Position numbers and translations under genes: made by a program. Below, one piece after another: positions 4,685 through 27,537 of a stretch of DNA of 36,239 nucleotides. Source of the stretch: Hydrogenophaga sp. (lineage in GTDB: Bacteria > Pseudomonadota > Gammaproteobacteria > Burkholderiales > Burkholderiaceae_C); contig JAGKSX010000022.1 in NCBI GenBank assembly GCA_018993155.1, positions 1-36,239 of the forward strand, in the 5' to 3' direction. Numbering within the stretch: position 1 is the first letter of the stretch; the number at the start of each line of letters is the position of its first letter. The notes under the pieces are model-generated. The model ran no database searches and was not told the origin of the DNA. It saw only the letters and a list, made by a program, of their open reading frames with translations.

Positions 4685-6127
4685 ATGTACGGAATCACCG
4701 GGCATGGCACCTACGTGCCCCGCCTTCGCATGCGCCGCGAAACCATCGCCGCCGCCCACCGCTGGATGGCGCCCGGCCTGGCGGCGGGCGCGAAAGGCCA
4801 GCGCGCCTTCTGCAGCTGGGACGAAGACAGCACCACCATGGCCGTGGAAGCCGCGCGCAAGGTGCTGGACGCGCAGGCGCGTTCCGCCGTGCGCTCGCTC
4901 ACGGTCGCCACCACCCGCGCGGCCTTCGAAGACCTGCCGACCTCCAGCCTCGTGGCCAATGCCCTGGCACTGCCCGAGGCGCTCCGCGCGGCCGACCTGG
5001 GCCAGTCGCAGCGCGCTGGCGTGAGCGGCCTGCTGGCCCAGCTGCGCGCGGCCGATGGCCCCGCGCTCGTGATCGCCAGCGACCACCCCGGCGCCAAGGC
5101 AGCCAGCGCGCAGGAACTGAGCTACGGCGCGGGCGCGGCGGCCTTCTCGTTGGGCAGCGAGGGCGTGATCGCCCAGCTGATCGGGGCCCACAGCGTGTGG
5201 AACATGTTCGTCGACCACTTCCGCTCCAGCGAGTCGAAGCATGACTACTACTGGGAGGAGCGCTGGATCCGCGACGAGGGCTACGCCCGCATCGTGCCGG
5301 ACGCCGTGGCCGCCGCGCTCAAGTCGGCCAACCTGGCGCCCGCGCAGGTGAAACACTTCATCTTCGCCTCGCCTCTCAAGGGCAGCGGTGCGATGGTCGC
5401 CAAGCGCTGCGGCATCGCGGTGGACACGCTCGACAGCACGCTCGACGAGCAGTGCGGGTATGCCGGCGCCGCCCACCCGGCCCTGATGCTGGCTGACGCG
5501 CTCGAACGCTGCCAGCCCGGCGAGGTGCTGGTGCTGGTCGGCTTCGGCCAGGGATGCGACGTGCTGGTGCTGCGCGCCACCGACGCGATCCAGACCTACC
5601 AGACACGCGGCAGCGTGCGCGCCGCTCTGGCAGACGCCCAGGTGCACGGCGACTATCTGCGCATGCTGTCGTACGACAAGGGCATCGAACTGGAATGGGG
5701 CATGCGCGCGGAGAAGCCGATCAAGACGGCGCTGAGCGAGCAACATCGGTCGGCCGACCAGCTAGGCGCGATGGTGGCTTGCAAGTGCACGCGCTGCGGC
5801 ACCGTGCAGTTTCCGCGCCTGGCGTACTGCGTGGGAGAAGGCTGCGGTGCACCGGCCGCCGAGAGCGCGCCTGTGCCCCTGAGCGACGTGCCGTCGAAGC
5901 TGCTGACCTGCACCGCCGACTGGCTGTCCTACCACCCCGCGCCCCCGCTGCACGTGGGTTTCGTGCAGTTCGACAACGGCGCACGGGTGCTGATGGAGAT
6001 CGTCGATGTCGGCGCGGCCGGGCTCGACGTAGGCACGCCGCTGCGCATGACCTACCGCATCAAGGACGTGGACACCGCACGCGGCTACACACGCTATTTC
6101 TGGAAAGCCACGCCCCTGGCGGCGTGA
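4685..6127 (+). CDS. HMG-CoA-synthase-like thiolase-fold protein fused to a C-terminal DUF35 (zinc ribbon plus OB-fold)
   Basis: A 480-residue fusion. Residues 1-300 follow the archaeal HMG-CoA synthase/KAS III fold: opening MYGITGHGTYVPRLR, the FCSWDEDSTTMAVEAAR block at 42-58, and a late GFGQGCDVLVLR strand at 286-297. Residues 366-387 form a zinc ribbon (Cys366, 368, 371, 382, 387), followed by an OB-fold to the end, together the DUF35 module. Catalytic positions are substituted. In the segment DLGQSQRAGVSG (104-115), Gln109 takes the place of the nucleophilic Cys (archaeal pattern DLEFACKAGTAG). Ala228 takes the place of the catalytic His, and Cys257 that of the Asn. It is therefore unlikely to be an ordinary HMG-CoA synthase. 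DUF35 proteins partner thiolases, and the next gene is one, so a complex is likely (inference). Start chosen at the ATG that opens the conserved fold; an upstream in-frame start would add 22 non-conserved residues. Confidence 0.82.
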   Translation: MYGITGHGTYVPRLRMRRETIAAAHRWMAPGLAAGAKGQRAFCSWDEDSTTMAVEAARKVLDAQARSAVRSLTVATTRAAFEDLPTSSLVANALALPEALRAADLGQSQRAGVSGLLAQLRAADGPALVIASDHPGAKAASAQELSYGAGAAAFSLGSEGVIAQLIGAHSVWNMFVDHFRSSESKHDYYWEERWIRDEGYARIVPDAVAAALKSANLAPAQVKHFIFASPLKGSGAMVAKRCGIAVDTLDSTLDEQCGYAGAAHPALMLADALERCQPGEVLVLVGFGQGCDVLVLRATDAIQTYQTRGSVRAALADAQVHGDYLRMLSYDKGIELEWGMRAEKPIKTALSEQHRSADQLGAMVACKCTRCGTVQFPRLAYCVGEGCGAPAAESAPVPLSDVPSKLLTCTADWLSYHPAPPLHVGFVQFDNGARVLMEIVDVGAAGLDVGTPLRMTYRIKDVDTARGYTRYFWKATPLAA

Positions 6128-6141
6128 GGAGCAGTACCACC

Positions 6142-7341
6142 ATGGCAACAGGTATCAAGGACAAGGTCGCCATCATCGGCATGGGCTGCTCGCGCTTCGG
6201 CGAGCGTTACGACGCGGGCACGCACGACTTGATGGCGGAAGCCTTCAACGAGGCGCTGCAGGACGCCGGCATCGAGCGCAAACAGATCGACGCCGCGTGG
6301 TTCGGCTCCTGCCTCGACCAGATCAACATCGGCAACTCGGCCATTCCTGCGTCGCTGGCGCTGCGGCTCGACGGCATTCCCGTGAGCCGTATGGAGAATA
6401 TGTGCGCCACCGGCACCGAGGCGCTGCGCGGCGCGGCCTACGCCGTTGCCTCCGGCGCGGTCGACATCGCCTTGGCCATCGGCGCGGAGAAGCTCAAGGA
6501 CACCGGCTACGGCGGCCTGCCGCCGACCTACAAGGGCACGTTCAACGACCTGTGGATGCCGCTGGGCTCGGCGCCCGCCGGCTTTGCGCAGCTGGCCGAT
6601 GGCTACCGCACGCGCTACGGGATTTCGAAGGAAGAACTCAAGCGCGCCATTGCCCGCGTGTCCTGGAAGAGCCACCAGAACGGCGTGCTCAGCCCTAAGG
6701 CGCATCTGCGCAAGGCCGTCACCATGGAGCAGATCCTGGGCGCGCCGATGATCGCTGACCCTCTCGGCCTGTTCGACTGCTGCGGCGTGAGCGACGGCGC
6801 GGCCTGCGCCATCGTGACCACGCCCGAGATCGCCCGCGCGCTCGGCCGCAAGGACATGGTGACCATAAAAGCGATTCAGTTGAGCGTGAGCTCGGGCATC
6901 GAGTCGACCACCCACACCTGGGACGGCAGCCACGTGCGCAACACCCGCAACGCCGCCAGCCGCGCCTACGCCGAAGCCGGCGTGACCGACCCGCGCCAGC
7001 AGATCTCGCTGATGGAGGTGCACGACTGCTTCTCCATCACCGAGCTGGTCACCATGGAAGACCTGTTCATCTCCGAACCCGGCCGCGCCGTGCACGACGT
7101 GCTCGACGGTTTCTACGACCGCGAAGGCGGTGGTGTTCCCTGCCAGGTCGACGGCGGCCTCAAGTGCTTCGGCCACCCTATCGGCGCCTCGGGCCTGCGC
7201 ATGGCCTACGAGGTCTACAACCAGCTGCAAGGCCGCGCGGGCGAACGCCAGTTGGCCAGCCCGAGCCTGGGCCTCACCCACAACCTGGGCGGTGTGCCGT
7301 ACCAGGGCGTGGCCGCCGTGAGCCTGCTGGGCTTGCACTGA
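6142..7341 (+). CDS. SCP2-type thiolase (acetyl-CoA acetyltransferase family)
   Basis: A 399-residue thiolase with GGAG ahead of its ATG, 14 bases after the DUF35 fusion. The acyl-accepting Cys is Cys88 in ENMCATG. HDCF follows at 294-297, and the GHP loop KCFGHPIGASG at 341-351 carries His345. The second catalytic Cys of biosynthetic thiolases, usually in a C-terminal CxG motif, is replaced by THNLGG (379-384), as in the SCP2/SCPx-like lineage. This lineage includes degradative thiolases and the retro-aldolases of steroid side-chain breakdown that work with DUF35 proteins. The role here is thiolytic or retro-aldol release of a short acyl-CoA at the end of the oxidation spiral (inference). 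The immediate neighbour with a DUF35 domain supports a two-protein complex. Confidence 0.88.
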   Translation: MATGIKDKVAIIGMGCSRFGERYDAGTHDLMAEAFNEALQDAGIERKQIDAAWFGSCLDQINIGNSAIPASLALRLDGIPVSRMENMCATGTEALRGAAYAVASGAVDIALAIGAEKLKDTGYGGLPPTYKGTFNDLWMPLGSAPAGFAQLADGYRTRYGISKEELKRAIARVSWKSHQNGVLSPKAHLRKAVTMEQILGAPMIADPLGLFDCCGVSDGAACAIVTTPEIARALGRKDMVTIKAIQLSVSSGIESTTHTWDGSHVRNTRNAASRAYAEAGVTDPRQQISLMEVHDCFSITELVTMEDLFISEPGRAVHDVLDGFYDREGGGVPCQVDGGLKCFGHPIGASGLRMAYEVYNQLQGRAGERQLASPSLGLTHNLGGVPYQGVAAVSLLGLH

Positions 7342-7366: not shown

Positions 7367-8290
7367 ATGGACATGCACATGAAGTCGCTTGAAGGAAAAG
7401 TCATCATCGTGACCGGCGCGGGTGCCGGTGTGGGGCGCGGCATCGCGCGCGAGGCGGCGCGCCAGGGCGCGAAGGTCGTGGTGAACGATCTGGGCGTGAA
7501 GATCGATGGCTCCGAGGCCAGTGCCGGCCCCGCGCAGGAAACCGTGGAGCTGATCCAGGCCGAAGGTGGTGTGGCTGTTGCCAACACCGACAGCGTGGCC
7601 GACTGGAGCGGCGCCCAGCGCATCGTGCAGCAGGCCATGGACCTCTACGGCCGCGTGGACGGCGTGGTGAACAACGCCGGCAACCTGCGCGACGCACTGT
7701 TCCACAAGATGACCGAGGACGAGTTCGACGCCGTGATCCGTGTGCACCTCAAGGGCAGCTGGAACGTGGCGCGCGCGGCCGCACCACACTTCAAGGAACA
7801 GCAGAGCGGTGCCCTCGTGCACATGACCTCCACTTCGGGCCTGGTCGGCAATCTGGGCCAGGCCAACTACGCGGCGGCCAAGATGGGCATCGTCGGCCTG
7901 TCCAAATCCATCGCGGTGGACATGCAGAAGTTCGGCGTGCGCTCCAACTGCATCGCACCGTTCGCCTTCACCCGCATGGTCGGCAGCATCCCCACCGACA
8001 CGCCCGAGAAGGCCGCGCGCATGAAGACGCTGATGAGCATGGAGTCCGACAAGATCGCGCCCTTCACGCTGGCGCTGCTGAGCGACGCGGCCAGAGATGT
8101 GACCGGGCAGATCTTCGGCGTGCGCAACAACGAGGTGTTCCTGTTCTCGCAACCGCGCCCGATCCGCACCATCCACGATGCGGCCGGCTGGACCGTGCAG
8201 GGCTGCATCGAGCGCGCCCTTCCTTCGTTCAAGCCGTCGATGTCGCCGCTGGAACTTTCGCGCGACGTGTTCGCCTGGGACCCGATGTAA
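7367..8290 (+). CDS. Short-chain dehydrogenase, MFE2-like 3-hydroxyacyl-CoA dehydrogenase
   Basis: A 307-residue SDR. The NAD-binding motif TGAGAGVGRG is at 16-25, NNAG at 102-105, the catalytic Ser in STS at 155-157, and Tyr168 with Lys172 in NYAAAKMG. The insert after the second strand (NDLGVKIDGSEASAGPAQ) and the extra C-terminal tail are features of the dehydrogenase half of peroxisomal multifunctional enzyme type 2 and its bacterial relatives. These oxidise 3-hydroxyacyl-CoA to 3-ketoacyl-CoA. The next gene encodes the matching hydratase 2, so the two proteins reproduce the two MFE2 activities as separate chains. Three in-frame ATGs (7367, 7373, 7379) are possible starts; none has a strong ribosome-binding site. 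Confidence 0.85.
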   Translation: MDMHMKSLEGKVIIVTGAGAGVGRGIAREAARQGAKVVVNDLGVKIDGSEASAGPAQETVELIQAEGGVAVANTDSVADWSGAQRIVQQAMDLYGRVDGVVNNAGNLRDALFHKMTEDEFDAVIRVHLKGSWNVARAAAPHFKEQQSGALVHMTSTSGLVGNLGQANYAAAKMGIVGLSKSIAVDMQKFGVRSNCIAPFAFTRMVGSIPTDTPEKAARMKTLMSMESDKIAPFTLALLSDAARDVTGQIFGVRNNEVFLFSQPRPIRTIHDAAGWTVQGCIERALPSFKPSMSPLELSRDVFAWDPM

Positions 8291-8302: not shown

Positions 8303-9160
8303 ATGATCGACCTCCACACCTTGCTGCACCACCCCATTCCACAGGGGCGGCAAAAGCTCTCGCGCCACGCGGCCGCGCTGTACGCGCTGTCGGTCGGCCT
8401 GGGACAGGACCCGCTGGACACCCGGCAACTGGCCTACGTGGACCCGACCCGGGCCGATATGCCGATGCTGCCCTTCATGGCGGTCGTGCTCGCGCCCAAT
8501 GGCCCGTGGATCGCGGACCCGGCGCTGGGCATCGACTACGGCAAAGTGGTGCACGGTGAACAGTCCATGCAGTTCGAGGCGCCACTGCCTACCGAAGGCG
8601 AGGTGGTCTCGACGCTGCGCGTGCTGAACGTGATCGACAAGGGCGAGAGCAAGGGCGCGCTCATGGTCACCGAAAAGGAACTGCGCGACGCGGTGTCGGG
8701 CCAGCGTTATGCGGTGCTGCGCAGCACGCTGTTCCTGCGTGGCAACGGCGGCTTCGGCGGACCCACGGGCCCGATCCCGCCGCTGGACGTGCTACCGGAG
8801 CGCGCGCCCGATCACACGCTGGACCTGCCGACGCGGCCCGAGCAGGCGCTGGTCTACCGCCTCAACGGCGACTTCAACCCGCTGCACGCCGACCCGGCGG
8901 TGGCGGCCAAGGCCGGCTACCCACGGCCCATTCTTCACGGCTTGTGCACCTTGGGCCTGTGCGGCCACGCGCTGCTGCGCACGCTGTGCGAGCACGATCC
9001 GGCACGTATGCTGTCACTCGGTGCGCGTTTCAGCGCCCCGGTGCTGCCCGGTGACACCGTGCGCGTGGAGATGTGGGACGACGGCTCCTTTCGCGCGCGC
9101 GTGCTCGAACGCGACGTGCTCGTCATCAACAACGGCAACGCCAGGATCCGCCCCGCATGA
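8303..9160 (+). CDS. MaoC-family double-hotdog enoyl-CoA hydratase 2
   Basis: A 285-residue protein, the length of a two-hotdog hydratase 2. The N-terminal hotdog (about 1-150) is the degenerate substrate-binding half. The C-terminal hotdog carries the hydratase 2 signature GDFNPLHADPAVA at 189-201, with Asp190, Asn192 and His195 as the catalytic set. It should hydrate trans-2-enoyl-CoA to the R-3-hydroxyacyl-CoA, the stereoisomer used by MFE2-type dehydrogenases such as the preceding SDR. Single-chain two-hotdog hydratases commonly accept bulky substrates such as bile-acid or steroid CoA esters (family knowledge), which fits the rest of the operon. The stop codon overlaps the next start (ATGA at 9157-9160), so translation is coupled. 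Confidence 0.87.
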   Translation: MIDLHTLLHHPIPQGRQKLSRHAAALYALSVGLGQDPLDTRQLAYVDPTRADMPMLPFMAVVLAPNGPWIADPALGIDYGKVVHGEQSMQFEAPLPTEGEVVSTLRVLNVIDKGESKGALMVTEKELRDAVSGQRYAVLRSTLFLRGNGGFGGPTGPIPPLDVLPERAPDHTLDLPTRPEQALVYRLNGDFNPLHADPAVAAKAGYPRPILHGLCTLGLCGHALLRTLCEHDPARMLSLGARFSAPVLPGDTVRVEMWDDGSFRARVLERDVLVINNGNARIRPA

Positions 9161-10329
9161 ACCTCGACCTAGACCCCACCCAGGCAGCCTTCCGCGAGGA
9201 AGTACGCACCTTCATCCGCGAGAGCCTGCCCGACGAGGTGCGCCAGCGCCTGCGTCGGGGCCACGCGCCGCGCAAGCAGGACTCGGTGATGTGGCAGCGC
9301 CTGCTCAACACCCGCGGCTGGGCCGCGCCGCACTGGCCCAAGGAATACGGTGGCGCCGGCCTGGACGTGCCGCGCCGCCTGATCCTGATCGACGAGCTCT
9401 ACCGCGCGCCCGCACCCCAGCCGATCGGCTTCAACATCAACATGCTGGGCACGGTGCTGCTGCGCTACGGCACCGAGGAACAGAAGCGCTTCTTCCTGCC
9501 CAAGCTGGCCAACCTGGACCTCCTGTTCTGCCAGGGCTTCTCGGAGCCGGGGTCGGGCTCGGACCTGGCCTCGCTGCGCACCCGCGCCGAACGCGACGGC
9601 GATCACTACCGCGTCAACGGCCAGAAAATCTGGACCACGAACGCGCACGTGGCCGACTGGATCTTCGCGCTCGTGCGCACCGAGCAGGCTGCGCGCAAGC
9701 AGGATGGCATTTCCTTCCTGCTGATCGACATGAAGAGCCCCGGCATCACGGTGCGCCCGATCGTGTCGATCGACGGCCAGCACCACCTCAACGAAGTCTT
9801 CTTCGACGACGTGCGGGTGCCTGTGGGCAACTTGGTGGGCGAAGAGGGCCGGGGCTGGGACTGCGCCAAGTACCTGCTGGTCAACGAGCGCATCTCGGTC
9901 GCCAGCGTGGGCCAGTGCTGGGAGCGGCTGGACTATGCGCGCGAACTGGCCAGCCAGCAGAAGTCGAATGGCGAGCGCCTGGTGGACGACCCCAAATTCG
10001 CCGCCGAGCTGGCGGTGCTGGGAGCCGAGGTGCGCGCGCTGGAGCTCACCGCCTGGCGCTGCCTGCTCGACCCGGACATCGACCGCACGCTGCCGGGTTT
10101 TGCCTCGGTGCTCAAGCTCAAGGGCTCGGAGCTGATCCAGGACATCACCATGCTGCTCGCCCGCGTCTCCGGCCTGAGCGGGCTGGAGCGCCGCAGCAAC
10201 GATGGCGATGCCGCCCTGCACGGCGACGCGGCCACCGTGTCGCGCTACTTCTTCCACCGTGCCACCTCCATCTACGGTGGATCGAGCGAGGTCCAGAAGG
10301 ACATCCTGGCCAAGACCATCCTGGGTTGA
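9157..10329 (+). CDS. Acyl-CoA dehydrogenase, probable catalytic (alpha) subunit of a heteromeric enzyme
   Basis: A 390-residue FAD-dependent acyl-CoA dehydrogenase. Visible: CQGFSEPGSGSDLASL at 125-140 (flavin and substrate contact), the beta domain with NGQKIWTTNAHVADW at 154-168, and the C-terminal helix region ending IYGGSSEVQKDILAKTILG. The Glu of the usual C-terminal EGT catalytic motif is missing (YGGSS instead). Glu244 in LLVNERISVAS sits where the isovaleryl-CoA-type enzymes and the mycobacterial heterotetrameric FadE proteins carry their catalytic base. Together with the unlike dehydrogenase encoded five bases downstream, this points to an alpha2beta2 enzyme of the steroid side-chain type, which introduces the 2,3 double bond into a bulky acyl-CoA (inference). 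Start is the ATG overlapping the preceding stop. Confidence 0.87.
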   Translation: MNLDLDPTQAAFREEVRTFIRESLPDEVRQRLRRGHAPRKQDSVMWQRLLNTRGWAAPHWPKEYGGAGLDVPRRLILIDELYRAPAPQPIGFNINMLGTVLLRYGTEEQKRFFLPKLANLDLLFCQGFSEPGSGSDLASLRTRAERDGDHYRVNGQKIWTTNAHVADWIFALVRTEQAARKQDGISFLLIDMKSPGITVRPIVSIDGQHHLNEVFFDDVRVPVGNLVGEEGRGWDCAKYLLVNERISVASVGQCWERLDYARELASQQKSNGERLVDDPKFAAELAVLGAEVRALELTAWRCLLDPDIDRTLPGFASVLKLKGSELIQDITMLLARVSGLSGLERRSNDGDAALHGDAATVSRYFFHRATSIYGGSSEVQKDILAKTILG

Positions 10330-10334
10330 ACCAC

Positions 10335-11471
10335 ATGAACTTTCACATCAGCGAAGAACACCAGCTCCTGTCGGAGAGCCTGTCGCGCCTGTTGGGCGAC
10401 CAGGTCGGCTTCGAGCAGCGACGCGCCATTGCCGCGTCGGCCGAAGGTTGGAGTGCCGAGGTCTGGCGCCAGTTGGCCGATCTGGGCGTGCTCGCGCTCG
10501 GCATTCCCGAGGCCTACGGCGGCCTGAGCGAGGCCGCGGCCGACCGCCTGCCGGTGGCCCAGACTCTGGGCCGTGCGCTGTCGCTCGAACCCTACCTGGC
10601 CACTGCGGTGCTGGGCAGCACCGCCGTGCTCCAGGCCGGCAGCGAGGCACAGAAAAACGCGCTGCTGCCCGCGCTGGCCAGCGGCGGTTTGCGCCTGGCC
10701 TGGGCGCACGACGAAAGCGGCGAGCGGCACAACCCGACGTGGGTGGACACCCGCGCCACGCACGAAGGCGCCAGCTGGCGGCTCGACGGCCACAAGGCGC
10801 TGGTGCTGCACGCGAACGCGGCCGGTCGTCTGGTGGTGAGCGCGCGCGTGGCAGGGCAGGGCGGTGCCACGCAAGGCATTGCTCTGTTCCTGGTCGACCC
10901 CGGCGCCGCCGGTGTGGCGTTGCGCCATTTCCGGCTCGTCGACGACACACCGGCGGCCGAGCTGACGCTGCAGGGCGCGGCCGCCGAGGCGCTCGGCGAT
11001 CCCGCGGACGCAGCGCGCCAGGCCGCGGCCCTGCGGGCGGTGCTCGATGCCGGCACGGCGGCCGCCTGCGCCGGCATGGTCGGCGCCATGGAAGCCGCCT
11101 TCGAACTCACCACTGGCTACGTGAACACGCGCAAGCAGTTCGGCCGTCTTATCGGCGAATACCAGGCCCTGCGCCACCGGGTCGCTGAGATGCGGGTCGG
11201 CCTGGAGGTCTCGCGCACGATGGCTATGGCCGCCGCGCTGGCGGCCGACGGGGCCGGCTCGCCCGAGGCCACCACCGAACTGCTGCGCGCCAAGCTGGTC
11301 ATTGGCCGGCAGGCCCGCATGGTGGGTCAAGCGGCCATACAGTCGCACGGGGGCATCGGCATGACCGAGGAATACGCGGTCGGCCATTGCCTGCGCCGCA
11401 TCCACGTGCTCGACCAGCTCTTCGGCGATGCCGATGCGATGGCCGCGCGCCTGGCCCGCCTGGGCGCCTGA
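10335..11471 (+). CDS. Acyl-CoA dehydrogenase-like protein, probable non-catalytic (beta) partner subunit
   Basis: A 378-residue member of the acyl-CoA dehydrogenase family starting MNFHISEEHQLLSESLSRLL. The N-terminal helical domain is clear (LADLGVLALGIPEAYGGLSE) and so is the C-terminal flavin part (TRKQFGRLIGEYQALRHRVAEM and QSHGGIGMTEEYAVGH). The middle beta domain is poorly conserved: the usual SEPxxGSD loop reads AHDESGERHNP, and no catalytic Glu is found at either known position. Such divergent copies occur beside a catalytic subunit in heterotetrameric dehydrogenases and supply FAD contacts but not the base. It lies five bases after the alpha gene. A free-standing role cannot be ruled out. 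Confidence 0.83.
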   Translation: MNFHISEEHQLLSESLSRLLGDQVGFEQRRAIAASAEGWSAEVWRQLADLGVLALGIPEAYGGLSEAAADRLPVAQTLGRALSLEPYLATAVLGSTAVLQAGSEAQKNALLPALASGGLRLAWAHDESGERHNPTWVDTRATHEGASWRLDGHKALVLHANAAGRLVVSARVAGQGGATQGIALFLVDPGAAGVALRHFRLVDDTPAAELTLQGAAAEALGDPADAARQAAALRAVLDAGTAAACAGMVGAMEAAFELTTGYVNTRKQFGRLIGEYQALRHRVAEMRVGLEVSRTMAMAAALAADGAGSPEATTELLRAKLVIGRQARMVGQAAIQSHGGIGMTEEYAVGHCLRRIHVLDQLFGDADAMAARLARLGA

Positions 11472-11498: not shown

Positions 11499-13049
11499 AT
11501 GTCTCTCACGCTCAGCCTTCAGCGCTCCATGCAGCTCACGCCGACGAAGACGGCGACCATCTTTGGCTCGCGCCGCCGAAGCTTCCAGGTCTACGGCGAA
11601 CGGGTCGCCCGTCTGGCCGGTGCCCTGCGCGCGCTGGGCATGCAGCCGAACGAGCGCGTCGGCATCCTGGCGCTCAACTCTGATCGCTTCCTTGAATGCG
11701 TCATGGCCGTGTGGTGGGCTGGCGGTGTGCTGAACCCGGTGAACATCCGCTGGAGCGTGCCGGAGATCGTGTATTCGCTGGACGACTGCGACACGCGCAT
11801 CCTGATCGTGGACGATGCCTTCGCGCCCCTGGCACCCCGGATCAGTGCCACCGCAAGGCACGCGCCGCTGTTCATCCATGCCGACGAAGACCAGACGCCC
11901 GTGGGCATGCACGCGTACGAAGCGCTGATCGACGCCCACGACGCCGTGGAAGACGCCGGACGCGGTGGTGACGACCTCGCCTGCATCATGTACACCGGTG
12001 GCACCACGGGCCACCCCAAGGGCGTGATGCAGTCGCACATGAACCTGTGGGCCGCGGCGGTGCAGCGCCTGGCGGAAACCCCCATCCTGCGCAACAGCAC
12101 GGCGCTGCATGTCGTGCCGCTGTTCCACATTGCCGGGCTGGGCCGCATCGTCATGCAGTCCATTGCGGGCGAATGCCAGGCCGTGCTGCCGGGCTTCGAC
12201 GCGCGCCAGGTGCTCGAGATCATCGAGCGCGACAAGGTCACCGACACCGTGATGGTGCCGACCATGATCCAGGCGGTGCTGAACCACCCCGATTTCCACA
12301 AGTTCGACCTCAGCAGCTTCAAGCGCCTAGGCTACGGCGCTTCGCCAAGCGCCAGCGTGATGGTCGAGCAGGCGGTGCGCCTGTTGCCCCATGTGGAGCT
12401 GTCCCATGCGTATGGGTTAACAGAGGCCTGCCCGGTGGTGTCCTCCAGCGGACCGGCGCACCACAGCGAAGCCGCGCGCAAGAGCGGCTTGTCGCGCTCG
12501 GCCGGCCTGCCGGCCTTCGGGGTGCTGGTGCGCATCGTCGACGCCGATGGCAACGAGGTGCCGCGCGGCGTGGTGGGCGAGATCACGGCGCGTGGCCCGA
12601 ACATCATGCTGGGATACTGGAACAAACCGGAAGAGACCGCGAGGGCCCTGCGCGACGGCTGGCTGTTCACCGGCGACGGCGGTTACATGGATGCCGAGGG
12701 CAACCTCTTCATCGTCGACCGCATCAAGGACATGATCGTCAGCGGTGGCGAGAACGTCTACTCGGCCGAGGTTGAAAACGCCATAGCCCAGCACCCGGCC
12801 GTGGCGATGTGCGCCGTGATCGGCATCCCACACGAGAAGTGGGGCGAGGCGGTGCACGCCGTGGTGGTGCGCAAGCCTGGCACCGAGCTGGACGAGGAGG
12901 CCGTGCGCGCGCACTGTCGCAAGCTGATCGCCAGCTACAAATGCCCCAAGACGGTGGTGTTCCGCGACGAGCTGCCGTTGTCGAGCGCCGGCAAGATCTT
13001 GAAGCGCGACCTGCGTGAACCGTACTGGCCCCGCAAGGCTGCGGTATGA
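11499..13049 (+). CDS. AMP-forming acyl-CoA synthetase (FadD-like)
   Basis: A 516-residue adenylate-forming CoA ligase. Motifs in order: P-loop-like YTGGTTGHPKG at 165-175, YGLTEA at 305-310, GYWNKPEET and the DGWLFTGDGGYMD block in the C-terminal third, DRIKDMIVSGGENVYSAEVE at the hinge, and the catalytic Lys499 in SAGKILKRDLR. It activates a carboxylic acid with ATP and CoA, giving AMP and pyrophosphate. It provides the entry step for the operon, whose other enzymes all act on acyl-CoA. The substrate cannot be read from the sequence. The stop overlaps the start of the metallo-hydrolase gene (ATGA at 13046-13049). Confidence 0.9.
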   Translation: MSLTLSLQRSMQLTPTKTATIFGSRRRSFQVYGERVARLAGALRALGMQPNERVGILALNSDRFLECVMAVWWAGGVLNPVNIRWSVPEIVYSLDDCDTRILIVDDAFAPLAPRISATARHAPLFIHADEDQTPVGMHAYEALIDAHDAVEDAGRGGDDLACIMYTGGTTGHPKGVMQSHMNLWAAAVQRLAETPILRNSTALHVVPLFHIAGLGRIVMQSIAGECQAVLPGFDARQVLEIIERDKVTDTVMVPTMIQAVLNHPDFHKFDLSSFKRLGYGASPSASVMVEQAVRLLPHVELSHAYGLTEACPVVSSSGPAHHSEAARKSGLSRSAGLPAFGVLVRIVDADGNEVPRGVVGEITARGPNIMLGYWNKPEETARALRDGWLFTGDGGYMDAEGNLFIVDRIKDMIVSGGENVYSAEVENAIAQHPAVAMCAVIGIPHEKWGEAVHAVVVRKPGTELDEEAVRAHCRKLIASYKCPKTVVFRDELPLSSAGKILKRDLREPYWPRKAAV

Positions 13050-15762: not shown

Positions 15763-16761
15763 TCAGGCGCGGTCGAAGAAGGCCTGCCGGGCGCGCTCGG
15801 GCACCGACATGCCGGTGGCGTTGGCCTTCTGCAGGACGCCCCAGAAGTAGCGGTAGGTGGCGCGGTCGTGCAGCTCGCCCTGGTACTGGATCGGGCCCCA
15901 GTCGGCCGCCTGGGCGGCGAGCAGGATCTCCGCGCCGTCGTGCACCTCCCGGAAATCGGGCTGCATGGCCTGCACGATCGGGGCGATCTGGGCCGGGTAG
16001 ATGCTCCACATGCGCTGGAACCCGAACGCGTGGCGCGCGCGCGAGGCATCGCCGCTGATGACCTCGGCGTCCTTGAGGTTCAGGCACACGTTGTGCGCCG
16101 GCACGACACCGTTGGCCAGGGCGGCGGCCGACACCTCGGCCTTGGCGCGCGCCAGCAAAGGATGCTCGAACTGGCCCGGGCTGCGCATGGCCGATGCCGG
16201 GATCGCGCCGTGGTGGCCGCTCACGAAATCCATCAGGCCGAAGTCGAGCACCTCGAGGTGGGGCAGGGCGGCGATCGCGTGCACGTCGCGCAAGGCGCCA
16301 TGGGTTTCGATCAACACGTGGATGGGCACAGGGGTGCTGCGACCGGATTGGCGGGCGGTGCTTTGCACGTATTCGATCACCTCGGCCACTTGCTGGGTCG
16401 CCGTGGCCTTGGGGATGGTGACGTAGGCAAGGCGTTGCGCGGCACCGCCGACGACGATCTCCACGTCCTGCCGCCAGGCCGGGTGCGATGGGTCGTGGAT
16501 GCGCACACCGAGCTTGCCGTGGCGGTTCAGGGGTGACGCGATCACGCGCGCCACCATCTCGGCGTGGGCTCGCTCCTCACCGGCACGCGCGCCGTCTTCG
16601 CAGTCGCAGGTGATGTCGAACACGGGGCCCATTTCGTCCTGCAGCGCCAGGGCTTTGACGATCAGCTTTTCGCTGCCGGCGAAGTGCTCGCAGGCGGCGA
16701 GCGCGGGGAAGGTTTTTTCGCCGGAGAAGAGGGCGTCCTTGGGGTGCACGATGGTGGTCAT
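15763..16761 (-). CDS. HpcH/HpaI (CitE-like) CoA-ester lyase, beta-methylmalyl-CoA or citramalyl-CoA lyase type
   Basis: A 332-residue TIM-barrel lyase. Conserved points: the acidic CDCEDGA segment at 52-58, Arg87 in GVRIHD, Glu152 in LIETHGALRDV and Asp179 in FGLMDFVSGHHG, which together bind Mg2+ and the keto-acid part of the substrate. Family members split 3-hydroxyacyl-CoA acids such as malyl-CoA, beta-methylmalyl-CoA or citramalyl-CoA into acetyl- or propionyl-CoA plus glyoxylate or pyruvate. The gene directly upstream in the operon encodes a mesaconyl-CoA-hydratase-like protein, whose product would be the substrate of such a lyase. Which C5 isomer is cleaved cannot be told from sequence. 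The start lies 10 bases after the preceding stop and has no strong ribosome-binding site. Confidence 0.86.
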   Translation of the reverse strand: MTTIVHPKDALFSGEKTFPALAACEHFAGSEKLIVKALALQDEMGPVFDITCDCEDGARAGEERAHAEMVARVIASPLNRHGKLGVRIHDPSHPAWRQDVEIVVGGAAQRLAYVTIPKATATQQVAEVIEYVQSTARQSGRSTPVPIHVLIETHGALRDVHAIAALPHLEVLDFGLMDFVSGHHGAIPASAMRSPGQFEHPLLARAKAEVSAAALANGVVPAHNVCLNLKDAEVISGDASRARHAFGFQRMWSIYPAQIAPIVQAMQPDFREVHDGAEILLAAQAADWGPIQYQGELHDRATYRYFWGVLQKANATGMSVPERARQAFFDRA

Positions 16762-16771
16762 GGTCTTGTGT

Positions 16772-17863
16772 TCAGAGGTTGGGGGTGGCTGCGCCGCGCT
16801 TGGGCAGGGCGATGGTGAAGTCCAGATCAAGCACGGTCTCGGGGGCGTGCTTCTGGCCGACGGCGGGAAAAACGATCTGGCTGGCGCTCTCGAGGTTCTT
16901 CGCACCGACCATGCGCAACCGCACGCCGCCCACGGACGCGCCGCTCCCGGCATCGAAGGTGTCGAGCACGGTGGTGGCGCAGCAAATCGTGTCGCCCGCG
17001 AAGGTGGGCGACACATGGCTGCCGCCGTGGATGGCGAGGATGGCCAGCGCGTTCTCGGTGCCGTCGTAGGCCAGGGCCTTGCACACCGAGATGATGTGCC
17101 CGCCGTAGACCAGGCGCTGGCCCATGGGCGAGCGCGCCATGCCGTGCGCATCGAAGTGGGCCTTGGCGGTGTTCTGGTACAGGCGCGTGGCCAGGCTGTG
17201 GTCGCTATGGTTGATGGCCATCGCGGCGGGGTGGTCGATGCGCTCGCCGACGGCGTAGTCCTCCCACAGATCGGTGACGCCGGTGGACTGCGTCACCAGG
17301 GCCGCGCGGTGGTCGAAGCGCTCGGCCGCGAGCGCGGCCAGGGCGGCGGTGTCCACTTGCGCTTGCAGCGTCGGAATCACCGTCTCGCCGCACGCGGCGG
17401 TGGCGTCGCGCTTGTGCACCATCACCCAGCGCACCCAGCTCAACACGGTCTGGCCGTGCTGGTTGCGCGCGGTCGAGCGCACGTAGACCACCCCGGACCG
17501 GCGGTTGGAGTTTTCCTTGAGGCCGATCACATCGCTCTGCACGCTGAGCGTTTCGCCGTTGAAGACCGGCTGGTTGAAGCGCATCTCCGCATAGCCGAGG
17601 TTGGCGACGGCGTTGAGCGAGAGGTCGGGCACGGTCTTGCCGAAGGCGGTGTTGAACACCAGCAGGTCGTCGAGCGGGCGTCCGCGCTGGCCGGCGGCGC
17701 GCGCCACGGGATCGGCGCTGTGCAGGCAGGCGCGGCTGCCGGTGAGCGCGATGTAGAGACTCTGGTCCGCGTCGGTCAGCGTGCGCGGCGTGGCGTGCAC
17801 GAAGCGCTGGCCGAGGCGGAAGTCTTCGAAGTAGTTGCCGGTGCGCGTCTTGCTGCTGCTCAT
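16772..17863 (-). CDS. Mesaconyl-CoA hydratase-like double-hotdog protein
   Basis: A 363-residue double MaoC-like protein. Its N-terminal half closely matches my recollection of the mesaconyl-CoA hydratase (beta-methylmalyl-CoA dehydratase) of the ethylmalonyl-CoA pathway. Shared blocks include NYFEDFRLGQ, HATPRTLT, PLDDLLVFNTAFGKTVPDLS, LNAVANLGYAE, VIGLKENSNRRSGVVYVRST and VLSWVRWVMVHKRD. The reaction is reversible hydration of mesaconyl-CoA to beta-methylmalyl-CoA; related proteins hydrate itaconyl-CoA to citramalyl-CoA. The neighbouring lyase can cleave either product. The rest of the ethylmalonyl-CoA pathway (crotonyl-CoA carboxylase/reductase, ethylmalonyl-CoA mutase) is not in the window, so use in C5-dicarboxylate degradation is more likely than acetate assimilation. 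The start overlaps the preceding stop (ATGA). Confidence 0.85.
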   Translation of the reverse strand: MSSSKTRTGNYFEDFRLGQRFVHATPRTLTDADQSLYIALTGSRACLHSADPVARAAGQRGRPLDDLLVFNTAFGKTVPDLSLNAVANLGYAEMRFNQPVFNGETLSVQSDVIGLKENSNRRSGVVYVRSTARNQHGQTVLSWVRWVMVHKRDATAACGETVIPTLQAQVDTAALAALAAERFDHRAALVTQSTGVTDLWEDYAVGERIDHPAAMAINHSDHSLATRLYQNTAKAHFDAHGMARSPMGQRLVYGGHIISVCKALAYDGTENALAILAIHGGSHVSPTFAGDTICCATTVLDTFDAGSGASVGGVRLRMVGAKNLESASQIVFPAVGQKHAPETVLDLDFTIALPKRGAATPNL

Positions 17864-19026
17864 TGCGGCACCTTGCCGAGCAGGGCGTCGGAAATGATGC
17901 GCTGCTGGATCTCCGAGGTACCCTCGAAGATCTTGGTGAGCCGCGCGTCGCGCCAGTGACGCTCCACCGCGAAGTGCGTGGTGTAGCCCGCGCCGCCGTG
18001 GATCTGGAGGCCTTCGCTGGTCACCTGCTCGGCCATCTCGGTGGCGAAGAGCTTGACCATCGCGGCCTGCGTGTCGCAGCGCTGGCCCTGGTCGATCTGT
18101 TCGCACACCGAATACATCAGCGCGCGCGAGGCTTCGATCTGCGTCGCCATGGTCGCGAGCTTAAAGCGGATGGCCTGGAATTCGCCGATGGAGCGGCCGA
18201 ACTGGTTGCGCTCTTTCGCGTAGACCAGCGAGTCTTCCAGCGCGCCCTGGGCCAGGCCGATGGCGCGCGCCGCCGTGTGGGCGCGCGCGGTTTCCAGGCC
18301 GGCGGTGGCGAGGTAGAAGCCGCGCCCTTCCTCGCCGATCATGTGCGTGGCCGGCACGCGGCATTTGTCGAACGCAAGTTCCCAGGTGGTCCAGCCGAAG
18401 TAGCCGATCTTGGGGATGGTGCTGCCCTTGCAGTTCTCGGGCAGCTGGCCGCGCGGCTTCTCGACCATGAAGGCCGACAGGCCCTTGTGGCGCGCCTTCG
18501 GATCCACCTTGGGGCCGGTGCGCGCGATCACCACGATGAAGTCGGCCTGGTCGGCGAAGGTGCACCAGTACTTGCTGCCGGTGATTTCCCAATGGTCGCC
18601 GTTGCGCACCGCGCGGCAGGTGATGTTGGCCACGTCGGAGCCCGCGTTGGCTTCGGACAGCGAGAACGCACCGAGGTATTCACCGCGCGCCATGCGCGGC
18701 AGGTATTCCTTCTTTTGCTCGTGCGTGAGGTGCTTGAGCGCGCCGATCAGCCCGTTGCCGCGCGCGATCAGGCTGGCCACGCTCATCCAGCCGCGCGAGA
18801 GTTCCTCGGCGACCATGCAGTATTCGGTGGCGCCCAGGCCCAGGCCGCCGTATTCCTCGGGAATCAGGATCGAGAAGTAGCCGAGCTCGGCCATCTCGTC
18901 GATCAACTCGCGCGGGATCATGCCCTTCTCGGGGTCCAGTTTGTTGGCGATCGGCAGCACGCGTTTCATGGTGAATTCGCGGGCCGATTCCTTGATGAGC
19001 TTGCGCTCCTCGGTGAGGATTTGCAT
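17860..19026 (-). CDS. Acyl-CoA dehydrogenase
   Basis: A 388-residue acyl-CoA dehydrogenase of standard length with all expected parts: GAFSLSEANAGSDVAN in the active-site loop, WEITGSKYWCTFADQADF in the beta domain, RNQFGRSIGEFQAIRFKLATM for FAD, QIHGGAGYTTHF, and the catalytic Glu368 in LTKIFEGTSEIQQ. It is therefore a self-sufficient homomeric enzyme, unlike the split pair at 9157-11471. In this operon it could oxidise methylsuccinyl-CoA or a similar short branched or dicarboxylic acyl-CoA to the unsaturated substrate of the following hydratase (inference). It is about 160 residues shorter than the methylsuccinyl-CoA dehydrogenase of the ethylmalonyl-CoA pathway, so it is not that enzyme. 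A GGAGAA ribosome-binding site supports the start. Confidence 0.9.
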   Translation of the reverse strand: MQILTEERKLIKESAREFTMKRVLPIANKLDPEKGMIPRELIDEMAELGYFSILIPEEYGGLGLGATEYCMVAEELSRGWMSVASLIARGNGLIGALKHLTHEQKKEYLPRMARGEYLGAFSLSEANAGSDVANITCRAVRNGDHWEITGSKYWCTFADQADFIVVIARTGPKVDPKARHKGLSAFMVEKPRGQLPENCKGSTIPKIGYFGWTTWELAFDKCRVPATHMIGEEGRGFYLATAGLETARAHTAARAIGLAQGALEDSLVYAKERNQFGRSIGEFQAIRFKLATMATQIEASRALMYSVCEQIDQGQRCDTQAAMVKLFATEMAEQVTSEGLQIHGGAGYTTHFAVERHWRDARLTKIFEGTSEIQQRIISDALLGKVPQ

Positions 19027-19049
19027 AAGGGTTCTCCAGAAATTCGTGT

Positions 19050-20267
19050 TCAGGCGATGGCGCCTTCGCGGCGCAACCGGGCGATGTCGTCGTCTGCCAG
19101 GCCCAGGGCGTGCAGCACGCTGTCGGTATGTTCGCCCAGCAGGGGCGCGCGGCGTTGCACGCCACCGGGCGTTTCGCTGAGCTTGATGGGCACGCCGGCG
19201 ATGCGCACGGGTGCGGGACATCCCGGGTGCTCCACCTCGACCAGCATCTCACGCCGCGCGAAGTGCGGGTCGTCGAAGATGTCGCGCGCGGTGTAGACGG
19301 GCCCGAAGGGCACGTGGCCACCCAGCGCTTCGGCCAACTCGGCCTTGGTGCGCGTGCGGGTGAAGGCCTCGACCGTTTCGATCACCTCGTTCGCGTGCGC
19401 CACGCGCGACTGGTTGGTGGCGTAGCGCGGGTCGGAGGCCATCTCGGGGCGGCCGATGATGCGGGCGAGCTCGGCCCAGAGCTTCTCGTTCGCGCAGGCG
19501 ATCGACACCCAGCCATCCCGTGCCGGGAACAGGCCGAAGGGACAGAGCAGCGGATGCCGGTTGCCCTCGGGACCGGGTGTGCGGTCTTCGTAGGACTGCT
19601 GGTACACGATGCGCTCGCACAGCGCGAGCACGCCGTCGGCCATGGCCACGTCGACGAACTGGCCCTGGCCGGTGCGCTGTGCATGATGCACCGCCGAGAG
19701 AATGCCGATGCCCAGCATCAGGCCCGGTACGATGTCGCCCACGCCCGGGCCGATCTTGGTGGGCGCACCACCTTGCGGGCCGGTGATGCCCATGATGCCG
19801 CCCATGGCCTGCGCGACCACGTCGTAGGCCGGCCAGTCCGCGTACGGGCTTTCACCCGTGCGCGGATCGCCGAAGCCGCGGATGGTGGCATAGACCAGTC
19901 GCGGGTTGAGCGCGCGCAGGCTTTCGTAGCCCAGGCCCAGGCGCTCCATCACACCGGCACGGAAGTTCTCCACGATCACGTCGGCATCGCGCACCAGGCG
20001 CATCAGCAATGTGCGCGCTTCGGGGTGCTTGAGATCCAGCGCGATCGACGACTTGTTGCGGTTGACGCTCTGGAAGTAGCCGCCGAAGGCGCGCAGCGTG
20101 TCGTCGGGGTGGAAGGGGCCGGAGCTGCGGATGCCGTCGCCCGCGAGCGACTCGACCTTGATCACCTGCGCGCCCTGGTCCGCGAGCACCTGGGTGCAGA
20201 TCGGGCCGGCGAGCATCTGCGACAGGTCGATCACCCGCAGACCGGACAAAGCGCCTTGTGGCTGCAT
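19050..20267 (-). CDS. Class III (CaiB/BaiF) CoA-transferase
   Basis: A 405-residue family III CoA-transferase. The opening LSGLRVIDLSQMLAGPICTQVLAD, the ADQGAQVIKVE strand, NRNKSSIALDLKHPEAR and the GVMERLGLGYESL block are characteristic. Asp178 in GPGVGDIVPG is at the position of the Asp that forms the acyl anhydride. This fold also includes alpha-methylacyl-CoA racemases, but the racemase GHD histidine motif is replaced here by PAYDVVAQAMGG, which favours a transferase. It would activate a carboxylic acid using a CoA donor such as succinyl-CoA and so start the pathway completed by the downstream dehydrogenase, hydratase and lyase. The start has GAGGAG upstream; 13 bases separate it from the preceding gene. 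Confidence 0.88.
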   Translation of the reverse strand: MQPQGALSGLRVIDLSQMLAGPICTQVLADQGAQVIKVESLAGDGIRSSGPFHPDDTLRAFGGYFQSVNRNKSSIALDLKHPEARTLLMRLVRDADVIVENFRAGVMERLGLGYESLRALNPRLVYATIRGFGDPRTGESPYADWPAYDVVAQAMGGIMGITGPQGGAPTKIGPGVGDIVPGLMLGIGILSAVHHAQRTGQGQFVDVAMADGVLALCERIVYQQSYEDRTPGPEGNRHPLLCPFGLFPARDGWVSIACANEKLWAELARIIGRPEMASDPRYATNQSRVAHANEVIETVEAFTRTRTKAELAEALGGHVPFGPVYTARDIFDDPHFARREMLVEVEHPGCPAPVRIAGVPIKLSETPGGVQRRAPLLGEHTDSVLHALGLADDDIARLRREGAIA

Positions 20268-20280
20268 GGCTGCGTGCTCC

Positions 20281-21291
20281 TCAGTCCACTTTCGCGCCCG
20301 AGCGCTGGATGGCGGTCTTCCACTTGCTGCGCTCGGCGACCACGAAATCGCCGAACTTTGCGCCGCCCAGCGCCAGTGGCAGGCCACCCATGCGGCCCAG
20401 CGACTCGACCACGGCGGGGTCTTGCAGGGCCTGCGCCACTTCGGTCTGCCAGCGCTCGACGATGGCAGCCGGTGTTTTCGCGGGGAAGAACAGGCCAATC
20501 CACGAGGTCGACTCCGCGCCAGGGTAACCGGCTTCGCCGATGGTCTGCACCTGCGGCAGGGCTGGCAAGCGCGTGGGGCCGGTGACGGCCAGCGCGCGCA
20601 GCTTGCCGGCCTGGATGTGGCCCAGCGTGGTGATCGGGTAGTCGACGCTGATGTCGACCTGGCCGCCGAGCAGATCGTTGATCGACGGTGCGCTGCCCTT
20701 GTACGGGATGTGCACGAACTTCACGCCGGCTTCGGCCTGCAGCAGCTCGCCCGCCAGGTGCGTGCCGGTGCCGTTGCCGGCCGACGAGAACAGCACCTTG
20801 CCCGGGTTCTGCTTCGCAAAGGCGACCAGCTCGGTGATGTTGCGGTACGGGCGGCTGGCGTTCGCCACCACGATGTTGGGGATGGACATGAGCGCGTGCA
20901 CCGGCACGAAATCCTTCGCCGGGTCGAAGGGCAGGGACTTGTAGAGGTACTGGTTGGTCGCCTGCGTGCCCTGTGTGCCCAGCAGCAGCGTGTAGCCGTT
21001 GGGTTCGGCGCGGGCGACGGCTTCCGCTGCGAGGTTGCCGCCTGCGCCCGCGCGGTTCTCGACGATCACGGACTGCCCCAGGCGTTCGCCCACTTTGAGC
21101 GCGATCAAACGCCCGAGCTGATCGGTGATGCCGCCGGCCGGTCCGGGCACCACGATGGTGAGGGGCTTGGTCGGGTACGCGGTTTGCGCCAGTGCGCCGG
21201 GCAGTTGCGCGAGCAATGCAAAGCCGGCAGACAAGGCCAGTGCCACGCGCCTGGCGCGCTGGTTTTTCAGAGAGGAACAGGTCGGTTTCAT
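20281..21291 (-). CDS. Bug-family (tripartite tricarboxylate transporter) periplasmic solute-binding protein
   Basis: A 336-residue periplasmic binding protein, the first gene of the minus-strand operon. The signal peptide covers about residues 1-35: a basic stretch around LKNQRARR, then ALALSAGFALLAQLPGALAQ with likely cleavage after ALA. The mature part has the Bug pattern YPTKPLTIVVPGPAGGITDQ, SVIVENRAGAGGN and PNGYTLLLG. The start is fixed by GGAGA upstream and by the signal peptide; longer in-frame starts would add 35 residues ahead of it and run into the promoter region. Like the Bug protein at 3663 it has no transporter partners in the window, and the two share only family-level similarity. 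It is likely to recognise the organic acid degraded by this operon (inference). Confidence 0.9.
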   Translation of the reverse strand: MKPTCSSLKNQRARRVALALSAGFALLAQLPGALAQTAYPTKPLTIVVPGPAGGITDQLGRLIALKVGERLGQSVIVENRAGAGGNLAAEAVARAEPNGYTLLLGTQGTQATNQYLYKSLPFDPAKDFVPVHALMSIPNIVVANASRPYRNITELVAFAKQNPGKVLFSSAGNGTGTHLAGELLQAEAGVKFVHIPYKGSAPSINDLLGGQVDISVDYPITTLGHIQAGKLRALAVTGPTRLPALPQVQTIGEAGYPGAESTSWIGLFFPAKTPAAIVERWQTEVAQALQDPAVVESLGRMGGLPLALGGAKFGDFVVAERSKWKTAIQRSGAKVD

Positions 21292-21357
21292 GGTGTCTCC
21301 AGAGGGTTGCTTCGACGGTGGGGCCGGGTGGCAGGTAAAGAAACTTCTCGAAATCGC

Positions 21358-21404
21358 TTGGATTTTGAATCCGAGATGGCGTATAGTAATCCGCAATCTC
21401 GGAT
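21358..21404 (+). promoter_or_regulatory. Divergent promoter region with perfect 9-bp inverted repeat, candidate IclR operator
   Basis: A sigma-70-like promoter reads toward the IclR gene at 21432: TTGGAT at 21358-21363 and TATAGT at 21382-21387 with 18 bases between. A perfect inverted repeat, ATCCGAGAT at 21369-21377 and ATCTCGGAT at 21396-21404, flanks the -10 element with an 18-base spacer. The site lies in the only gap between the two divergent operons, so one regulator bound here could control both. Binding by the adjacent IclR protein, with autoregulation, is inference from position. Confidence 0.55.
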
Positions 21405-26773: not shown

Positions 26774-27537
26774 AGACAGAGATCGGCTACACCACCACCG
26801 ACACCATCATGGTCCGGGGCAAGAACCTCTCGACCGAGATCATCGGGCAGTTCGACTTCATCGACATGATCTTCTTCACCACGCTGTCGCGCATGCCGAC
26901 AGCGCAGGAGAAGACCATGGTCAACGCGCTGCTTGTGACCACCGCCGACCACGGCATTACGCCCAGTTCGCTGGCCGCGCGCCTGACCTACATCGGCGCG
27001 CCCGAGTCCTTGCAAGGCGCCGTGGCCACCGGCCTGCTGGGCGCGGGCAGCGTGTTTCTTGGCACCATGCAGAACGCCACCGAGATGCTGCTGCAGGGCG
27101 CGGCCGACCTGACGGACGACGCCACCGACGAACAACTGCGCGACACCGCGCGCGCGCTCATCCAACAGTACAAGCAGGAGCGCCGCTCCATTTTCGGCGT
27201 GGGCCATCCGATCCACGTCGACGGCGACCCTCGCGTGCCGACCTTGCGCGCGCTCTCGCAGGCCAACGGCTACTACGGCAAACACTGGCGCCTGATGGAG
27301 GCCATCAGCGATGTCTTCACGCGCGAGATGGGCAAGAAGCTGCCGCTCAACGCGGTGGGCGCCATCGGCTCCATCGTGGCGGCCATGGGGCTGGACCCGA
27401 TGGTCGCGCGCGGCCTCGCCCTGGTCGGACGCTCGGCGGGCATCCTGGCCCACTGCATGGAAGAGAAACAGGCGCCGATGGCGCGCGAAGCCTGGGAGCA
27501 TGTGCTGCGCGCCGATCCGCGCAACGTATTGCCATGA
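26767..27537 (+). CDS. Short citrate-synthase-fold protein, citryl-CoA-lyase-like, with altered catalytic Asp
   Basis: A 256-residue protein with the small and large domain elements of citrate synthase but little more than half its usual length, like free-standing citryl-CoA lyases. His62 in TTADHGITPSS and His147 in IFGVGHPIHVDGDPR match the two catalytic histidines. The catalytic Asp of citrate synthase lies in an NVDF/NVDG motif; here the same stretch reads LPLNAVGAIG (192-201), with Val197 at the Asp position. Reversible aldol or Claisen cleavage of a 3-hydroxy-3-carboxyacyl-CoA would complete the operon's pathway, but the substitution makes true citryl-CoA chemistry uncertain. The gene overlaps the ligase by 7 bases and the racemase by 4. 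A ribosome-binding GGAGA lies before the ATG. Confidence 0.8.
   Translation: MVKTEIGYTTTDTIMVRGKNLSTEIIGQFDFIDMIFFTTLSRMPTAQEKTMVNALLVTTADHGITPSSLAARLTYIGAPESLQGAVATGLLGAGSVFLGTMQNATEMLLQGAADLTDDATDEQLRDTARALIQQYKQERRSIFGVGHPIHVDGDPRVPTLRALSQANGYYGKHWRLMEAISDVFTREMGKKLPLNAVGAIGSIVAAMGLDPMVARGLALVGRSAGILAHCMEEKQAPMAREAWEHVLRADPRNVLP

Follow-up and report, generated by a model that had tools for sequence, protein, structure and literature searches.

The fusion gene and its surroundings

The window analysed here, a 36,239-nucleotide stretch of Hydrogenophaga sp. DNA, carries at 4685..6127 on the forward strand a gene for a 480-aa protein, encoded in one open frame without an internal stop. As the original prediction had proposed, the product is a fusion of a domain resembling HMG-CoA synthase (HMGCS; residues 1-335, 4685..5689, +) with a DUF35 domain (residues 360-480, 5762..6124, +), an assignment borne out by NCBIfam, Pfam and profile matches. 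In the fusion protein ACP_syn_III_C scored above its Pfam cut-off, and the NCBIfam HMGCS models matched the N-terminal part at E 3.3e-40 and 1.1e-25, both with scores far below their curated cut-offs (NF003274, 138.2 of 244; TIGR00748, 90.6 of 353.35). With phmmer, residues 3-330 aligned to 6esq_I, and residues 3-331 to both PhlA (5m3k_A) and the PhlA-like chain of 9skh. The structure prediction proposed earlier was carried out with AlphaFold2 and indicated that the HMGCS fold is kept (mean pLDDT 91.7); a fold search placed three proteins at the top of its structural matches, namely the archaeal HMGCS from the thiolase/HMGCS/DUF35 complex, PhlA and MucA.

Relatives were drawn from 58 loci found in one genome_contigs scan with search peptides, none of which spanned residue 109; with the window protein they form a close set of 59 rows. 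All 58 relatives (41-82% identity) have the same architecture in one open frame, ruling out a frameshift or chimera artefact. Fusions of this kind occur in Proteobacteria, with more distant examples in actinobacteria and haloarchaea; databases call them nothing more specific than '3-oxoacyl-ACP synthase III C-terminal domain' or 'OB-fold domain' proteins. One locus, L033, lies on a metagenome-assembled contig titled Klebsiella pneumoniae; its fusion is nearly identical to that of an uncultured gamma-proteobacterium (L036), and the title is probably a binning error.

The traits of the DUF35 (ChsH2) family, a rubredoxin-like zinc ribbon and an OB fold, are both present in the fusion according to Pfam and profile matches. 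The zf-ChsH2 model scored just above its cut-off (E 2.5e-5; 24.4 versus 23.2) and OB_ChsH2_C below it (E 5.6e-5; 23.4 versus 27.1), and the fusion profile (A3) matched the DUF35 chains 6esq_E (E 1.6e-14) and PhlB (5m3k_B; E 6.9e-12). Cys368, Cys371, Cys382 and Cys387 are the candidate zinc ligands, and all four are present in 52 of the 59 close rows. Seven relatives that group in the tree (L041, L044 and L048-L052; SH-aLRT 86) have lost three of the four, so that even the zinc site appears dispensable there.

Fourteen base pairs downstream of the fusion gene lies a gene for an SCP2-type thiolase (6142..7341, +; NF004810, 654.3 bits against a cut-off of 403). It is followed on the same strand by genes for an SDR dehydrogenase (7367..8290; Pfam), a MaoC/MFE-2-type hydratase (8303..9160; Pfam), an acyl-CoA dehydrogenase pair resembling PimC and PimD, though below the cut-offs of those models (9157..11471), and an acyl-CoA ligase (11499..13049; Pfam, NCBIfam); MBL-fold hydrolase and crotonase genes are also found downstream. 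On the reverse strand, positions 15763-21396 hold a cluster of citrate-lyase-like, mesaconyl-CoA-hydratase-like, acyl-CoA dehydrogenase, class III CoA-transferase and TctC genes. A citryl-CoA-lyase-like citrate synthase domain is encoded at 26557-27537 (NF004868, 361.9 bits), between genes for an ADP-forming CoA ligase and a CaiB-type CoA-transferase. Further along, the gene for a 748-aa NACHT-domain protein (31972-34218, -) is flanked by a KfrA_N-type gene and an rve-type transposase gene, and a phage-type integrase is encoded close by (29615-30676); this is possibly a defence gene on a mobile stretch.

Among the neighbouring genes tested, only the thiolase was always present at the 58 loci. 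At 35% identity or more, relatives of the SDR dehydrogenase were found in 27 loci and of the hydratase in 25. A threshold of 40% gave 26 loci with the SDR, 25 with the MFE-2-type hydratase, 16 each with a short MaoC protein and with a CoA ester lyase, and 15 with a CoA hydrolase/transferase; the counts at 40% are lower bounds, since 16 of the 58 loci are shorter than 21 kb. Loci from Paraburkholderia and Caballeronia (L005 and L035) carry relatives of the window's 22-27.5 kb genes beside the fusion/thiolase pair. That many loci carry genes for MaoC proteins, CoA ester lyases, acyl-CoA dehydrogenases and CoA-transferases may point to branched dicarboxylates as substrates, but none of the tested genes among them is constant across the loci.

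Catalytic positions of the HMGCS-like domain

Residue equivalences were taken from sequence and profile alignments (phmmer and MAFFT), the fold search giving ranges only. Cys114 and Glu82 are described as the key residues of the archaeal HMGCS (6ESQ) in the available text of PMC6392133. The segment ADLGQSQRAG (103-112) of the fusion aligned without gaps in phmmer to ADLEFACKAG (108-117) of 6esq_I, which places Gln109 (codon 5009..5011, +) at the nucleophile Cys114, as originally claimed. Thr77 (4913..4915, +) occupies the position of the catalytic Glu82. In both phmmer and MAFFT alignments, the catalytic His of the FHQP motif corresponds to Ala228 (5366..5368, +), again as first proposed; the catalytic Asn (LGNTYSG) had been paired with Cys257, which proved to be two residues off, the equivalent residue being Tyr259 (5459..5461, +). 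Next to Gln109 stands Arg110 (5012..5014, +), where both 6ESQ and PhlA have Lys.

We followed these positions through three sets of relatives: (i) the close set; (ii) a genome-sample set of 18 fusion proteins from a class and a phylum sample, from which our own copies and two hits that were not full-length fusions were left out; and (iii) a plasmid set of 10 fusion proteins out of 52 matching records, picked from 40 to span the identity range. The genome-sample proteins were aligned pairwise. The three sets may share species, and the class and phylum samples overlap in part.

At position 109 the close set has Gln in 49 rows, Leu in seven, and Ile, Lys and Thr in one each. The genome-sample set has Gln in 11, Arg in three, Ser in three and Met in one; in the plasmid set, three proteins have Gln, one each has Arg, Ala, Pro, Leu, Gly and Thr, and one has a gap. 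Cys was found at this position in none of the 87 rows (0 of 59, 0 of 18 and 0 of 10, including the gapped plasmid row). Judged from these alignments, the missing Cys is no chance event across the fusion relatives. A quick tree of the 59 rows implied at least two changes between Gln and other residues, the latter being confined to a nine-row clade (Leu, Ile, Thr) and the single Lys row, and Gln109 occurs in both deep branches. The solved relatives have Gly (PhlA, two species) or Glu (MucA) there. Since Gln109 varies across the three sets, it reads in the sequences as a trait of one large subfamily and not of the whole fusion family. A homologue check of Gln109, as originally proposed, therefore gave a divided answer: the residue is common (49/59, 11/18, 3/10) and is not required, since other residues occur. 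Within the close set it is more conserved than pure decay predicts, and it may have a function there. An unfused, shorter HMGCS-like protein returned by the genome search (L090, genome G149) has Cys at the nucleophile position, as read by eye.

The remaining catalytic positions have changed as well. In the close set, position 77 is Thr in 52 rows, Gly in four, Asn in two and Cys in one, never Glu; position 228 is Ala in 29, Pro in 26, Gly in two and Ser in two, never His; and position 259 is Tyr in 32, Asp in 16, Asn in five, Phe in three, Leu in two and His in one. Thus, no close row has the Cys, the Glu or the His of the HMG-CoA synthase catalytic set. His was found at position 228 in three of the 28 more distant rows, two from the plasmid set (L063 and L069; Sphingopyxis and haloarchaeal) and one from the genome-sample set (L091); these have Arg, Thr and Arg, respectively, at position 109, without Gln. 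The HMGCS-like domain is predicted to lack catalytic machinery of its own, the Cys, Glu and His having been lost, and the Asn in most members. Together with the sub-cut-off NCBIfam scores, the loss of these residues rules out an active HMG-CoA synthase. The fusion is not simply decaying, since 48 of its columns are invariant in the 59 close rows; Arg110 is Arg in all 59, and in the genome-sample set this position is Arg in 15, Lys in two and Ala in one.

The adjoining thiolase and its co-occurrence with the fusion

The window thiolase has its catalytic residues: Cys88, the HDCF motif (His294, Asp295, Cys296, Phe297) and His345 of the GHP motif. Residues Cys88 and His294 to Phe297 are kept in 59 of 59 close rows, and Cys342, His345 and His380 in all 57 rows that are not truncated by contig ends. 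Likewise, Cys88, His294, Cys296 and His345 are kept in all 10 plasmid relatives, of which L068 has Gln at position 380, and in the 16 genome-sample relatives with a thiolase in the fetched stretch. Among solved structures, the thiolase of the archaeal complex (6esq_A, E 3e-47) ranked second as a relative of the window enzyme, and 7pxp_C also matched it (E 1.7e-36). A structure prediction of the thiolase, made from 15 close rows, had a pLDDT of 63.5 and was left out of the analysis.

At all 58 genome_contigs loci, the thiolase gene lies directly 3' of the fusion gene. In a class sample of 274 evenly drawn genomes (fusion profile at E 1e-20, thiolase at E 1e-60), fusion and thiolase occurred in the same eight genomes, our own included, and all nine copies were adjacent. 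In a phylum sample of 398 genomes (thiolase at E 1e-100), thiolase and full-length fusion occurred in the same 10 genomes, again including our own, with 11 copies each. These searches scored the best four to six candidates per genome, so that distant copies may be missed, and related genomes among the counts are not independent. Nine of the 11 phylum-sample pairs were adjacent; the other two genomes have the thiolase on a separate contig. In one of these (G544), fusion and thiolase lie close to the ends of their respective contigs (0.8 and 0.5 kb away), and adjacency cannot be judged; in the other (G408), at least 20 kb flank the fusion on either side, so the genes are truly apart and adjacency is not obligatory. 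Genome G598, source of the other short profile hit in the phylum sample, has an unfused row (L089/L094, about 148.5-151 kb of contig C1) of a thiolase, an HMGCS-like protein and a separate DUF35 gene; this HMGCS-like protein has Ala at the nucleophile position by eye (GSAQAG), and its thiolase is 35-38% identical.

Thiolase identity exceeded fusion identity in each of the 1653 locus pairs. Over the 59 rows, mean identities were 0.738 for the thiolase and 0.527 for the fusion (0.509 for the HMGCS-like part and 0.566 for the DUF35 part). A thiolase more alike than the fusion in every pair is expected if the thiolase is the catalyst.

The fusion as a probable partner of the thiolase

Several known systems resemble this pair. 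PhlA, which was called an inactive member of the thiolase superfamily in 2010 (PMC2954200), is described in the available text of PMC6392133 as lacking the key Cys and Glu; joint expression of PhlA, PhlB and PhlC is required, and the bound product is contacted by PhlC residues only (PMC6392133). Like PhlA-type subunits, the window protein has an HMGCS fold without its nucleophile, and a DUF35 part and an intact SCP2-like thiolase are encoded alongside it. However, PhlA and PhlB of the PhlABC acyltransferase (5M3K/5MG5; CsATase, 9SKH) are separate chains, whereas the window has one fused chain; PhlABC transfers acyl groups in antibiotic biosynthesis, whereas we read the window pair as catabolic; and PhlA and the fusion are only about 24% identical. 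The archaeal complex (6ESQ) has an HMGCS with Cys114 and Glu82 and a separate DUF35 chain, in contrast to Gln109, Thr77, Ala228 and a fused DUF35 part in the window. MucA of MucABC (9VBO/9VBT, Streptococcus macacae) is likewise a separate chain, 18% identical to the fusion. Benzoylsuccinyl-CoA thiolase BbsAB (7PXP), ChsH2-Ltp2 and Shy-Sal combine, like the window pair, a catabolic thiolase-fold enzyme with a DUF35 part; the accessible sections of PMC12329534 mention no HMGCS-like component in them, whereas the window has one. The steroid aldolases ChsH2-Ltp2 and Shy-Sal are given there with YDHF/YDCY motifs, in contrast to the HDCF motif of SCP2 thiolases in the window enzyme. DUF35 is described as the scaffold of such thiolase complexes (PMC12329534), and a 2010 paper pointed out that DUF35 is found fused to members of the thiolase superfamily (PMC2954200). 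The original statement that no function is described for such a protein holds for the fusion itself, in that no functional study of a pseudo-HMGCS/DUF35 fusion was recognised among the matches listed in the literature searched; it does not hold for the type of subunit, since PhlA is described as an inactive HMGCS-like partner of a thiolase (PMC6392133; PMC2954200).

We consider it likely that the fusion performs no catalysis and acts as a scaffold and CoA-site partner subunit of the adjoining catabolic thiolase, similar to PhlA and PhlB in one chain. The observations behind this are the missing catalytic set, the fold prediction, the co-occurrence and the thiolase residues. From the homology to PhlABC and the archaeal complex, together with the co-occurrence, we infer that the fusion corresponds to PhlA plus PhlB and that the thiolase is the catalyst; the physical complex, CoA binding, the direction of the reaction and the substrate class are proposed by analogy. 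The 'dead scaffold' serving the adjacent thiolase, one of two alternatives in the original prediction, is thus well supported: the two genes co-occur, the thiolase is intact, and PhlABC provides a precedent.

The other alternative was a decarboxylase of the KSQ type, in which Gln109 would mimic an acylated Cys and a malonyl-type CoA ester would be decarboxylated for the thiolase. KSQ ketosynthases keep their catalytic His partner(s). The fusion family has neither a family-conserved Gln at the nucleophile position nor a generally retained catalytic His: relatives of the same architecture have no Gln in 10/59, 7/18 and 7/10 cases and still stand beside a thiolase with Cys88, His294 and Cys296, the His position holds Ala, Pro, Gly or Ser throughout the close set, and just five of its rows have Asn where the catalytic Asn would be. 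Moreover, ketosynthase, acyltransferase, ACP and carboxylase domains were not found among the subset of window ORFs scanned with Pfam. In favour of a decarboxylase are the prevalence of Gln in the close set and its presence in both deep branches, along with the report that decarboxylation is the sole activity of Cys-to-Gln ketosynthases (available text of PMC12843615, citing Witkowski 1999). The literature searched yielded no papers on FabH C112Q. We rejected this alternative on the variability of position 109 and the loss of the His, and regard it as very improbable. A different activity of the HMGCS-like domain (retro-aldol, lyase or hydrolase), exerted through invariant residues such as Arg110, Glu144, Arg180 and Trp190/Glu191/Arg193/Trp194, seems improbable to us. 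These residues are indeed invariant in 59 of 59 rows, and the Trp-Glu of the Trp190-Trp194 segment is absent from PhlA and 6ESQ; yet no catalytic set is evident in the domain, Arg110 continues a basic residue already found in HMGCS and PhlA and is replaced by Lys or Ala in the sampled relatives noted above and by Ala in the haloarchaeal plasmid relative, and the substrate of PhlABC is described as touched by the thiolase subunit only (PMC6392133). We doubt to a similar degree that the fusion does no more than help the thiolase to fold or stay stable, without a part in substrate binding. Such a role would fit the co-occurrence equally well, and PhlA and PhlB are described as very likely needed for a properly folded, functional complex; however, the PhlC active site adjoins the PhlA cavity (both PMC6392133), the CoA site is common to thiolase and HMGCS in the archaeal complex (available text of PMC12329534), and the conserved DUF35 domain suggests a role beyond folding.

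As a partner subunit of the thiolase, the HMGCS-like domain would keep its fold and now serve as a structural and substrate/CoA-site partner, while the DUF35 domain would bridge it to the thiolase and help to hold the acyl-CoA. Catalysis would fall to the thiolase, with Cys88, the HDCF motif and the His of the GHP motif as its working residues, and thiolysis would conclude an (R)-specific beta-oxidation of the MFE-2-like kind, acting on an unusual acyl-CoA that is probably branched or dicarboxylic. More speculatively, and in our estimation rather unlikely, the dead HMGCS pocket could have been put to new use as the half of a composite thiolase active site that recognises the substrate, such that the pseudoenzyme sets the choice of substrate; Gln109 and the near-invariant Arg110, with DUF35, would then grip a branched dicarboxylyl-CoA by its acyl chain or distal carboxylate during cleavage by the thiolase, in a fused catabolic counterpart of PhlABC.

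Most likely, the fusion is a fused, catabolic version of a known pseudo-HMGCS subunit and not a new decarboxylase. As such, it would be a clear example of how an enzyme fold can become the constant partner of a neighbouring enzyme while contributing no catalysis itself. If the thiolase depends on the fusion, attempts to express the thiolase by itself would fail, and a thiolysis step could be assigned in several catabolic clusters.
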